From positions 1 through 30,080 of IMG/VR virus record IMGVR_UViG_3300025112_000113: 30,080 bases of DNA, one strand, 5' to 3'. How positions within the stretch are numbered: position 1 is the first letter of the stretch; each line of letters opens with the position of its first letter. Of the stretch, positions 20,148-23,559 are shown piece by piece. Position numbers and translations under genes: made by a program. The stretch comes from a virus. The notes under the pieces are model-generated. The model saw only the letters and a list, made by a program, of their open reading frames with translations, searched no databases and was not told where the DNA came from.

Positions 20148-20192
20148 ATTGTTTAGGCTAGTATAGTACAAGTGCCAAACAATGGAGATAAC

Positions 20193-20690
20193 ATGGAGCC
20201 GAATGCAGCGGAATGGGTAGATATTGAGGACCTGGTTCCTTGGACAGAGAATCCGAGGGACAATGACCACGCAGTGGATGAAGTTGCCAAGAGCCTTGAA
20301 CGATTTGGCTGGGGTGCCGTTATCATCGCTCGCCGTGAGAATGGGAGGGTTATTGCTGGGCATACAAGGCTTAAGGCAGCAATCAAACTTGGGCATGAGA
20401 AGGTTCCTGTTAGGTTTGTGGACATCACGGAACATGAATCGAGGGCATTGGCTTTAGCGGATAATCGATTGGGTGAACTTGCCAACTGGTCACAGGATCT
20501 ATCCAAAATCCTATCGGAATTAGATAAGGACGAGGTGAACTTGGACGGACTGGGTTGGTCCCTTGTTGAGTTGGAAAAGCTCATGGTGGAGAATGAACCG
20601 GCAGCCCAATTTGAGGAATTCAATGAGGACATAGGAACGGACCATAGATGCCCAAAGTGTAACTATGAGTGGTCTGGAGCCTCCTCATGA
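20193..20690 (+). CDS. ParB/sulfiredoxin-like domain protein with C-terminal CxxC
   Basis: A 165-residue protein with the ParB/Srx fold: NPR near residue 22, the phosphate-binding AGHTRLKAA (about 69-77) and LADNRLGELA (about 94-103). Members bind DNA, use CTP or cut DNA, and phage versions often sit beside DNA methyltransferases. The C-terminus ends with CPKCNYEW, half of a zinc ribbon, so it may bind metal as a dimer or with a partner. ATG 20193 has GGAG six bases before it; a GTG at 20172 is the longer option. It opens the operon and its stop overlaps the chorismate mutase start (ATGA). It may guide or regulate DNA modification, which is inference. Confidence 0.8.
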   Translation: MEPNAAEWVDIEDLVPWTENPRDNDHAVDEVAKSLERFGWGAVIIARRENGRVIAGHTRLKAAIKLGHEKVPVRFVDITEHESRALALADNRLGELANWSQDLSKILSELDKDEVNLDGLGWSLVELEKLMVENEPAAQFEEFNEDIGTDHRCPKCNYEWSGASS

Positions 20691-20989
20691 TTGCCAACAA
20701 CCCAAGAGTCCCTAGAATTGCCAAGGACTTTTTCAGAAAAGAGGTCGAGGACCTTCGTAAGATGATAAGCAGGCAGGATGACGAAATATCCATGGCCCTT
20801 CTTCGGAGATCCAAGCTTGTTCATAAAATGCAGAAACTGAAACAGGATTTCCAAGTGGACATGCGGGACCCATCCAGAGAGGAAGAGGTCTTAAAAAGGG
20901 TGGATGCTGGATTATACGGCGAAGAGGTAGCCCGTAAGATTTGGACAGTTCTTTTCGAGCATTCTAGGTTTGATGAACCAGAGGGATAA
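20687..20989 (+). CDS. chorismate mutase (AroQ, type II), stand-alone
   Basis: A 100-residue all-helical enzyme that converts chorismate to prephenate. The E. coli P-protein mutase active-site residues line up: Arg24 (Ec Arg11), Arg41 (Arg28), Lys52 (Lys39), Asp61 (Asp48), Arg64 and Glu65 (Arg51, Glu52) in RDPSREEEVL, and Ser93 (Ser84). Spacings match except for a four-residue shorter loop before the last helix. Ec Gln88 is Glu97 here; yeast mutase has Glu at this place too, with a more acidic pH optimum. ATG 20687 overlaps the previous stop, with GGAG at 20675. A phage seldom needs Phe/Tyr synthesis, so the reason is probably prephenate for the CmoA-like enzyme three genes on. Confidence 0.87.
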   Translation: MIANNPRVPRIAKDFFRKEVEDLRKMISRQDDEISMALLRRSKLVHKMQKLKQDFQVDMRDPSREEEVLKRVDAGLYGEEVARKIWTVLFEHSRFDEPEG

Positions 20990-22020
20990 TGGAGAAACCT
21001 CCATATAGAATTCCAGACATGAAGGAAATAGCGGCGATCCCATGGAATGGGATAAACGTGGTTTCCACGTTTTCGGGATGCGGTGGATCGTGCTTGGGAT
21101 ACAGGATTGCGGGATGCAAGGTTGTATGGGCCTCTGAATTTGTTCCAGCCGCGGCAGAGGTTTATAAATTGAATCACCCAAATTCCCATTTGGACACTAG
21201 GGACATCAGGGAAGTAGAGTCTTCCGATATTTTACGGGATGCAGGTATCCCAAAAGGTTCTGTGGATATTTTAGACGGAAGTCCTCCGTGCTCTTCCTTT
21301 AGCTTGGCGTCCGCAGGAAAGAGAACAAAGGATTGGGGAAAAGTAAAAAAGTATAGCGACACCAAACAGAGGACGGATGACCTTTTTTTCGAGTACACCC
21401 GAATCCTTGACGGGTTGCAACCCCGTGCGTTCGTAGCCGAAAACGTTCCTGCCCTTATAAGAGGAAAAGCCAAAGGATATTTTAAGCAGATAATTGGAGA
21501 GTTGAAAGATTGCGGTTACAAGGTTTCCGCAGCGATTATAAATGCTGGAAGACTAGGAGTTCCACAGGCTCGCCAAAGATTGATTTTTGTAGGGTTTAGG
21601 AATGATTTGGGGTTGAGCCCAGTTTTTCCACGTCCCGATAGCTGGGGTTATACGATAGGAGAATCCTTGAAGGGCCTTGATACCTCTGTCCAGTGCATTC
21701 GGTTTACCGGAAGAGGATGGGGAGTCGGCGCTCCTATTTATACGCCAAGTTTCCAGTCACCAACCGTTACCACTATGGGATTTTTTAGCGATGTTTACAA
21801 AGTGGATCGTCCAAGTTCCATTAACTGCTTTTCGGAAAATCAGAAAAACTCCGATAGGCTAACCATACATGAATTAAAAAGGCTCTGTTCCTTTCCAGAT
21901 GATTTTGAGCTTTCCGGTTCATATGAGCAGAGATGGGAAAGGCTTGGGCGCGCCGTACCTCCAATGATGATGAGTCGGATAGCCTCAACCATTGCGGAGA
22001 AATTAAATGCCAAGCGATGA
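20989..22020 (+). CDS. cytosine-C5 DNA methyltransferase family, predicted carboxymethyltransferase
   Basis: A 343-residue C5-cytosine methyltransferase. Motif I is STFSGCGG (26-33), motif IV GSPPCSSFS with nucleophile Cys101, motif VI ENV (151-153), motif VIII QARQR (193-197), motif IX RLTIHELKRLCSFPDDF (290-306) and motif X LGRAVPP (319-325). The target-recognition region (about 205-285) is short. The oddity is Arg321: the family has a nearly invariant Asn (GN[AS]V) there, close to the methyl donor. A Lys at the equivalent place of an engineered CpG methyltransferase has been reported to allow carboxy-SAM use. With a CmoA-like gene in the same operon, I infer transfer of a carboxymethyl group to cytosine. 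The target site is unknown. TAATG overlap upstream, 14-base overlap downstream. Confidence 0.88.
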   Translation: MEKPPYRIPDMKEIAAIPWNGINVVSTFSGCGGSCLGYRIAGCKVVWASEFVPAAAEVYKLNHPNSHLDTRDIREVESSDILRDAGIPKGSVDILDGSPPCSSFSLASAGKRTKDWGKVKKYSDTKQRTDDLFFEYTRILDGLQPRAFVAENVPALIRGKAKGYFKQIIGELKDCGYKVSAAIINAGRLGVPQARQRLIFVGFRNDLGLSPVFPRPDSWGYTIGESLKGLDTSVQCIRFTGRGWGVGAPIYTPSFQSPTVTTMGFFSDVYKVDRPSSINCFSENQKNSDRLTIHELKRLCSFPDDFELSGSYEQRWERLGRAVPPMMMSRIASTIAEKLNAKR

Positions 22021-22855
22021 CCATCTAACGGAAGGAATAAGGAGAGTCCTTATCGAGGAAGTGGAGAAGATAGATGGAAGGATTGCCGTTCTTCTATCTG
22101 GTGGAGTTGATTCCCATACACTGCTTGGTGCAGCAATAGCAGCAAAAAAAAATCCTCTTTGCCTTACATTTGCCTTAGAGGGTGTCAACTCAATGGACCA
22201 AAGGGAGGCAAGGAGGACCGCAAAGGCCTGTGGTCTGGAGTGCCGGGTTACCATCCTTCCTCGATCCATAGATATTTTACAAGAGGACGTTTCGGAATTA
22301 GTAAAGGTGTTTGGTCTTAGGAAAAAATCCGACATTGAATGCTCATGGCCCATAGTTAGGACAATTAGAGAATTGGAACCAGGGTTTACCGTACTCATTG
22401 GGTACAATGCGGAGAGATACTTTGGTCTTGGTAGAAAGAGGGAGATAACCTACAGGGACCAAGTTGACCCCGAACCAATAAATCTTTGCAGGAGAGAATT
22501 ATTCCTAAAGGGTTCCCCTCAAATAAGATGCGTTAGGAAAGTTGCCGCATCTAAGGAATGCCAAATAAGCGTTCCATACAGGGACCGATCTCCGGACCTG
22601 CTGGACCTATTTAACGGATTCAACTTCAAGGACATGAATTCCCCCAAACAGAAAAAACATGCGCGCCTTGCATTCAAGAAGGAAATCCCAAGAATTGTAA
22701 ACCTACTCCCACATACAAACCTTCAGCTTGGTGACTCAGGTATAGCCAAACATTTCCGTTCGTTAATAGATACGAATTGGAACGTTGGAGGGTGGAGGTC
22801 ACCAGTTGGAATTTATAACGCATTGGCAAACAACAGGATAGGAGTGGAGCAATGA
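22007..22855 (+). CDS. asparagine-synthetase-like ATP-dependent amide synthetase (no glutaminase domain)
   Basis: A 282-residue PP-loop enzyme matching the C-terminal synthetase domain of AsnB: LLSGGVDSHTLL at 29-40 (pyrophosphate loop SGGVDS 31-36), FALEGVNSMDQREARRTA (55-72) as the AsnB-type second strand, VLIGYNAERYFGLG (129-142) in place of the AsnB SGEGADE.FGG segment, and ISVPYRDRSPDLLDLF (187-202) for VPFLDH. The family adenylates a carboxylate and attaches an amine. The N-terminal Cys-type glutaminase is missing, so it must use free ammonia or another donor. In this operon the likely carboxylate is carboxymethylcytosine in DNA, giving the amide. This substrate is inference. A small-molecule substrate is possible. 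It overlaps both neighbours (ATGA at 22852). Confidence 0.8.
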   Translation: MPSDDHLTEGIRRVLIEEVEKIDGRIAVLLSGGVDSHTLLGAAIAAKKNPLCLTFALEGVNSMDQREARRTAKACGLECRVTILPRSIDILQEDVSELVKVFGLRKKSDIECSWPIVRTIRELEPGFTVLIGYNAERYFGLGRKREITYRDQVDPEPINLCRRELFLKGSPQIRCVRKVAASKECQISVPYRDRSPDLLDLFNGFNFKDMNSPKQKKHARLAFKKEIPRIVNLLPHTNLQLGDSGIAKHFRSLIDTNWNVGGWRSPVGIYNALANNRIGVEQ

Positions 22856-23559
22856 ACCAAGACATGGTTATCCCTGATGGAAAATGGGAATTCAATGATG
22901 AGGTCACAAAGGTTTTCGACGACATGTTAAAACGCTCCATTCCTCAATACGAGGTAATGAGGGAAGCAGTTACGGATTTGGCCCAACAGTATGCGGTACC
23001 ACAAACCGATATAGTTGACCTTGGGTGTTCCAGAGGAGAAGGAATTTCCAGACTGATAGATTACCTTCCATTCAACACCTTTGTTGGCGTTGAGATTTCC
23101 GAGCCAATGAGGAAATCCTGTATAGATAGGTTTTCCGATAGATTGCCTGCCAGTAAGGTAAGAATCCTTAATCTGGACCTTCGCCATCGGTACCCGGCGT
23201 GTTCCGCATCCGTTACGTTGGCGGTCCTAACTATACAATTCACGCCAATCGAATACAGGCAGCAAATCCTAAAAAACATTTATGACCATACGGAGAAGGG
23301 CGGAGCCCTTATTGTGGTTGAGAAGGTTTTAGGCGGATGCAATGAAATAAACGAATTGCTGGTGGACCAATACTATTCAATGAAAAACAGGAACGGATAC
23401 ACCCATGACCAGATAGACCGGAAAAGGCTATCTCTCGAAGGTGTATTGGTTCCTGTTACCGCCAAATGGAACGAGGAAATGTTGCAGTCGGCGGGGTTTA
23501 GTCGGGTGGAATGTTTTTGGAGGTGGATGAACTTCGCTGGTTGGGTTGCCTTAAAGTGA
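22852..23559 (+). CDS. cmoA-like: CmoA-like carboxy-S-adenosylmethionine synthase
   Basis: A 235-residue class I SAM enzyme that closely follows E. coli CmoA along its length: GKWEFNDEVTKVFDDMLKRSIPQY (split by me at residues 10-33), SAM-binding DLGCSRG (56-62), FVGVEISEPM (77-86), TIQFTPIEYRQQIL (127-140), EKGGALIVVEK (148-158), NGYTHDQIDRKR (181-192) and WRWMNFAGWVALK at the end. Arg192 aligns with CmoA Arg199, a residue reported to hold the carboxylate. CmoA makes carboxy-SAM and phenylpyruvate from SAM and prephenate. In bacteria its partner CmoB modifies tRNA wobble uridine; no CmoB is present here, and the likely user is the DNA methyltransferase. Last gene of the operon; it converges with and overlaps by nine bases a minus-strand gene. 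Confidence 0.9.
   Translation: MNQDMVIPDGKWEFNDEVTKVFDDMLKRSIPQYEVMREAVTDLAQQYAVPQTDIVDLGCSRGEGISRLIDYLPFNTFVGVEISEPMRKSCIDRFSDRLPASKVRILNLDLRHRYPACSASVTLAVLTIQFTPIEYRQQILKNIYDHTEKGGALIVVEKVLGGCNEINELLVDQYYSMKNRNGYTHDQIDRKRLSLEGVLVPVTAKWNEEMLQSAGFSRVECFWRWMNFAGWVALK

Follow-up and report, generated by a model that had tools for sequence, protein, structure and literature searches.

A phage cassette predicted to hypermodify DNA cytosine, with a chorismate mutase beside CmoX, a CmoY-like ligase and CmoA

The CmoA homologue found in the window (the whole stretch of DNA analyzed here, a virus record of 30,080 bases that is possibly a genome fragment) is the last of five genes which run in one direction on the forward strand at 20193-23559, each overlapping the next, in the order ParB, chorismate mutase, CmoX, CmoY and CmoA. 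Judged from the sequence and from analogy with a characterized system, we hold with good confidence that this cassette would hypermodify cytosines in the phage DNA, with prephenate supplied by its own chorismate mutase. According to the proposed route, the phage chorismate mutase would convert host chorismate into prephenate, and CmoA would use SAM and prephenate to make carboxy-SAM. CmoX, in which an asparagine is replaced by arginine, would then place the carboxymethyl group onto DNA cytosine, giving 5-carboxymethylcytosine, and CmoY would activate the carboxylate with ATP and join an amine to it. The ParB-like protein may help to target or load these enzymes, and the likely benefit is protection of the phage DNA against host restriction.

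Most of this finding is accounted for by the published CmoA/CmoX/CmoY DNA-hypermodification system of the Synechococcus phage S-B43, where CmoA makes carboxy-SAM, CmoX carboxymethylates cytosine and CmoY joins glycine (PMC12783734, Nat Commun, December 2025). The second to fourth steps of the route would follow by homology from that experimentally proven system, with the prediction for the fourth weaker than for the rest, and the first step, which is new, is suggested by the chemistry, by the conserved gene position and by the sequence and fold of the protein. The first-pass annotation had drawn attention to a phage CmoA without CmoB but missed the functional partners directly upstream, namely CmoX, the amide ligase and the chorismate mutase; such a CmoA is no longer puzzling, having been explained experimentally in the same paper (PMC12783734). 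The window resembles S-B43 in its adjacent CmoA, in a C5-type CmoX with the arginine and the SPPC motif, in a single-domain asparagine-synthetase-like ligase and in having no CmoB. It differs in gene order, which is CmoA - CmoY - CmoX in S-B43, in retaining the equivalent of E. coli CmoA R199 (a Glu in S-B43 CmoA, SpCmoA), in a CmoY without the SKKAxIH motif, and in possessing a chorismate mutase. The latter enzyme is nowhere mentioned in the description of the S-B43 system (PMC12783734), and a search of open-licence PubMed Central papers yielded none that connects chorismate mutase with CmoA or CmoX.

The neighbouring genes of the cassette overlap either as stop/start or by about 14 bases. 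Its first gene (20193-20690, +) encodes a ParB-N-like protein with a C-terminal zinc ribbon, CPKCNYEWSG, recognized by Pfam and PHROG: the ParB_N match (2e-5) lies narrowly below the Pfam cut-off, and the PHROG match to ParB-like proteins reaches 1.5e-39. The ATG at 20193 has GGAG 5 bases upstream, and an alternative GTG start is present at 20172. A ParB-like gene commonly adjoins CmoX (PMC12783734), as was also common in the related loci compared here. Zinc-ribbon-like tails of the form CPxCxYxWSG end the ParB-like proteins of the window (20193-20690) and of two related loci, L148 (4378-4953) and L164 (2424-2960), and in all three the next gene starts inside or just past this tail. On both sides the cassette is flanked by genes which Pfam and PHROG assign to phage replication and structural functions, including a portal, a DnaB-like helicase, RusA, a PD-(D/E)XK nuclease, an M15 peptidase and a transglycosylase. 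A near-identical contig, IMGVR_UViG_3300025141_009520, differs from the window by 14 mismatches over 8.2 kb and was not counted as independent evidence; nine of the ten mismatches listed (14 in total) cluster at 21207-22500, in CmoX and CmoY.

CmoA and its predicted carboxymethyltransferase partner

The gene at 22852-23559 (+), with an ATG start, encodes a protein of 235 amino acids that is predicted to be a carboxy-SAM synthase. The full-length similarity to CmoA, first noticed by eye, is confirmed by profiles and structures. TIGR00740 CmoA is its best NCBIfam match and tops the curated matches (E = 6e-47, 160.3 bits), aligning residues 10-235 with positions 13-239 of the 239 in the model, PHROG 4752 matches over the full length at 4e-72, and the best PDB matches, YecO 1im8 (6e-33) and E. 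coli CmoA 4gek (2e-28), run end to end. The CmoA motifs named in the first-pass annotation are all present. The score is under the TIGR00740 equivalog cut-off of 193.3 bits and also under that of PRK15451 (104.5 vs 285 bits); the biochemically proven SpCmoA of S-B43 reaches 115.6 bits on TIGR00740 and thus fails by a wider margin. Since it falls below the cut-offs, and the proven SpCmoA likewise stays under that of TIGR00740, the window protein is on its sequence filed as a phage CmoA-type carboxy-SAM synthase and not as the bacterial equivalog.

Comparison with bacterial CmoA (E. coli 4gek, H. influenzae 1im8) shows likeness over the full length, at R199 and at most cofactor residues, and differences in the sub-cut-off score, the lack of CmoB and the location within a DNA-modification cluster. 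The cofactor contacts of the E. coli enzyme, including the salt bridge of Arg199 to the carboxylate, have been described (PMC3663124). Y39, D62, G64, S66, D117, F137, E164 and R199 of E. coli are kept in the window protein, where D89, N90 and N132 are replaced by E, I and V. The carboxylate-binding arginine is R192 of the window protein, in agreement with the Arg199 equivalent that had been proposed for it. In the active SpCmoA (S-B43; L037, 3494-4189), a Glu is aligned to E. coli R199, so either an arginine is dispensable at this place or SpCmoA is locally misaligned.

CmoX (20989-22020, +; 343 amino acids), a predicted DNA cytosine-C5 carboxymethyltransferase, matches Pfam DNA_methylase at 2e-53, and its best match among solved structures is S-B43 CmoX (SpCmoX, 8yf3; 1.5e-62), with 38% identity in the alignment. 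Its nucleophile is C101 in an SPPC motif. Furthermore, R321 of CmoX, within LGRAVPP, aligns with M.HhaI N304 and with SpCmoX R350, the window segment ERLGRAVPP being aligned to the SpCmoX segment ERVGRMVPP which holds R350. In SpCmoX, an arginine at this position gives the use of carboxy-SAM, and activity is lost in the R350N mutant (PMC12783734). Among the relatives of CmoX, arginine at the R350 place was found together with a CmoA gene in 103 loci, while all 11 loci with asparagine at that place have no CmoA; these counts include related sequences and are to be read as a trend, not as independent events. Five further arginine-type loci have no CmoA in the available sequence, and four additional asparagine-type loci in bacterial genomes are also without it.

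On the Pfam matches alone, which for CmoA are limited to generic methyltransferase domains and for CmoX to DNA_methylase, one could suppose that neither enzyme is out of the ordinary, CmoX making 5-methylcytosine and CmoA being a common methyltransferase, and that the two are placed side by side by chance. This explanation is the least credible of those considered, as the CmoA matches in NCBIfam, PHROG and PDB are far stronger than those to the generic domains, and among relatives the replacement of asparagine by arginine in CmoX goes together with the presence of CmoA. The CmoA start lies 832 bases past the CmoX stop, with only CmoY in between, and by analogy with S-B43 the window CmoA very probably serves CmoX.

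Alternatively, the CmoA homologue might top up the host pool of carboxy-SAM for tRNA wobble modification by the host CmoB. The protein is homologous to an enzyme of the tRNA pathway, and SpCmoX can draw on carboxy-SAM made by E. coli CmoA, which means that pools are shared (PMC12783734). Nevertheless, general family scans of the 30,080-base window gave no match to CmoB and ARAGORN found no tRNA gene in it, as had been noted from the first inspection, and a methyltransferase of the carboxy-SAM type is encoded in CmoA's own overlapping run of genes, which makes this scenario very improbable. In the first-pass annotation, the cofactor was expected either to be used elsewhere or to supplement the host pool. 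The former is probable, given CmoX two genes upstream; the latter is unneeded and unsupported.

CmoA is also found in other surroundings. In the Staphylococcus phages vB-SscS-F1 (L042) and SPbeta-like (L046) it adjoins a C5-methyltransferase with glycine (VGGVINQ) at the R350 place, and these enzymes possibly have a different way of reading carboxy-SAM, or a different use. In many other loci (L056, L058, L081 and others), CmoA lies downstream of an ORF of about 500-560 amino acids with a ParB domain and no CmoX was detected; those ORFs are perhaps ParB-methyltransferase fusions of another kind.

The chorismate mutase and its recurrence beside CmoX

Between ParB and CmoX, at 20687-20989 (+), lies a gene for a protein of 100 amino acids identified by Pfam, fold and residues as an AroQ-type chorismate mutase. 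Its ATG overlaps the ParB stop (ATGA), and its stop overlaps the CmoX start (TAATG). The match to Pfam CM_2 (PF01817; 1.2e-10, 41.8 bits) is over the gathering cut-off of 27, and a profile built from the seven virus copies matches solved chorismate mutases, at best with 1.5e-11. The AF2 model (pLDDT 86.5) presents one long and two short helices, and each of the top 17 Foldseek matches is a chorismate mutase or a CM-like domain, albeit with E > 0.001; such weak values are to be expected of a small helical protein, and the fold is taken as support, not as proof. The phage protein thus shares with AroQ chorismate mutases (PF01817; E. coli 1ecm, the intracellular M. tuberculosis enzyme 2qbv, T. 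thermophilus 2d8d) the three helices with a long first one and the conserved R11, R28, K39, D48, R51 and E52 of the E. coli enzyme, which we take to be its catalytic residues. They correspond to R24, R41, K52, D61, R64 and E65 in the window and are invariant in all seven virus copies.

The phage protein differs from AroQ enzymes in being encoded by a phage, in overlapping a DNA-modification gene, in apparently having Glu in place of Gln88 and, in the copies of the L148 group, in being short at the C-terminus. The Gln88 place was assigned by eye, with Glu in the window copy and Trp or no residue in the others, and the C-terminal alignment there is uncertain. The five L148-group copies end before the region of E. 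coli Ser84/Gln88. Since some active chorismate mutases have Glu at the Gln88 place, this residue is not taken to define the family. The M. tuberculosis enzyme depends on DAHP synthase for its activity. Because of the Glu in the window copy and the short C-termini of the L148 group, the activity of the phage enzyme without a partner could be low, and the short forms, by analogy, may depend on another protein, CmoA for instance. We consider the phage chorismate mutase to be probably active.

A chorismate mutase gene was found between ParB and CmoX in three branches of CmoX, represented by the window phage, by L164 and by the Verrucomicrobia-linked L148 group, which comprises five virus records (L148, L213, L214, L259 and L268) and 17 genome-contig loci. 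The copies of the window, L164 and these five records are each over the Pfam CM_2 cut-off. In the 17 genome-contig loci, from MAGs labelled Verrucomicrobia, CmoX is preceded by ParB and chorismate mutase; no fewer than three of these chorismate mutase copies look broken or truncated. In the L148 group, dN of the chorismate mutase copies is well below dS. Several ParB-chorismate mutase-CmoX-CmoA cassettes, some of them broken, occur within one and the same Verrucomicrobia MAG (for example in JAOSKK01 and in JAKQDD01; genome-contig loci L287-L300, L304, L310 and L311), perhaps reflecting many related prophages in one genome.

Overall, the gene is rare, being present in seven of about 180 CmoX-bearing virus records. 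A PF01817 search found none in S-B43, and owing to this absence and to its general rarity the chorismate mutase is not essential to CmoX cassettes. Related to this, L211 and L212 have a CmoX 77-82% identical to that of L148, yet their ParB abuts CmoX and the chorismate mutase is absent. On the CmoX tree (FastTree), in which the branches near the window are long, at least three changes are needed to explain the trait. The need for these changes, together with the close L148 relatives devoid of the gene, shows that the chorismate mutase behaves as an optional element of the cassette.

Querying 50,697 phage records by tblastn with the window, L164 and L148 copies and the E. coli chorismate mutase gave no phage gene, the single match being a misfiled contig of the Salmonella chromosome, and IMG/VR scans with the window copy, and with three aligned copies, returned only the twin contig and L164; the remaining copies were found through CmoX searches. 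Several candidates were set aside. Other short genes between ParB and CmoX are not chorismate mutase-like by eye, the CM_2 match in Yersinia phage fHe-Yen9-02 (26 bits) does not reach the cut-off and is 26 kb away from the CmoA of that phage, and a 'chorismate mutase family' match reported in 2012 in phage AH2 is an integrase (PMC3483164).

It could also be argued that the chorismate mutase is a general auxiliary gene, present in the cassette by chance, through which the phage enhances or redirects the synthesis of aromatic amino acids in the host, with CmoA, CmoX and CmoY acting as described. Most CmoX cassettes are without the gene, and in rumen viromes chorismate mutase has been counted among the viral auxiliary genes that concern aromatic amino acids (PMC10465536). 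On the other hand, in three CmoX branches the gene is placed directly after ParB and directly before CmoX and overlaps each of them, a PF01817 search of about 240 CmoA/CmoX records gave no match over the cut-off outside that position, and its product, prephenate, is the co-substrate of CmoA itself. We therefore regard a chance placement as unlikely, and a role of the chorismate mutase in supplying CmoA with prephenate as fairly likely. As for the step that is served, CmoY accompanies the chorismate mutase cassette in the window only and was not found in the available sequence of the L164 and L148 branches; its absence from two of the three branches points to the carboxy-SAM step and not to the ligation step.

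The CmoY-like amide ligase

The gene at 22007-22855 (+) encodes a CmoY-like ATP-dependent amide ligase of 282 amino acids, with matches to Pfam Asn_synthase (2e-4) and PHROG 26038 (1.4e-39). The protein carries an SGGVDS PP-loop and consists of an asparagine-synthetase PP-loop domain without a glutaminase domain, like S-B43 CmoY (SpCmoY), to which it is about 30% identical. Its AF2 model (mean pLDDT 92) matches beta-lactam synthetase with Z 23.3 and asparagine synthetase with Z 22.1. The likeness to the ligase domains of these synthetases covers the PP-loop and the whole ligase fold (Z about 20-23), whereas the N-terminal glutaminase or homologous domain is lacking in CmoY, and its predicted substrate is modified DNA.

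In regard to the amine, SpCmoY has the motif SKKAxIH, in place of which the window protein has GRKREIT. Among other loci, SKKAx(I/L/V)H was present in 12 of 30 single-domain CmoY genes beside CmoX and in none of 31 two-domain ones. Because of this replacement, the amine in the window phage is not fixed as glycine, and judging by the sequence the amine joined by its CmoY may be a different one. A CmoY without SKKAxIH is accordingly a candidate for placing a different amine on DNA.

A proposed prephenate supply for DNA hypermodification in phages

The authors of the S-B43 study called for work on how available prephenate is from host to host (PMC12783734). The recurrence of a chorismate mutase gene wedged in between ParB and CmoX, seen in several branches, suggests that certain phages provide prephenate themselves, and one small enzyme makes this question testable. 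The auxiliary genes of the rumen virome include chorismate mutase, asparagine synthase and DNMT1 (PMC10465536), and such 'amino-acid auxiliary' genes of viromes may belong to carboxymethylcytosine cassettes. We find it reasonably likely that in some phages an unregulated chorismate mutase, encoded by the phage itself, is devoted to the hypermodification of DNA. If true, a single cassette would lead from chorismate, a node of the shikimate pathway, to prephenate, carboxy-SAM, 5-carboxymethylcytosine and finally its amide, and a branch-point enzyme encoded by a phage would divert precursors of aromatic amino acids into DNA.
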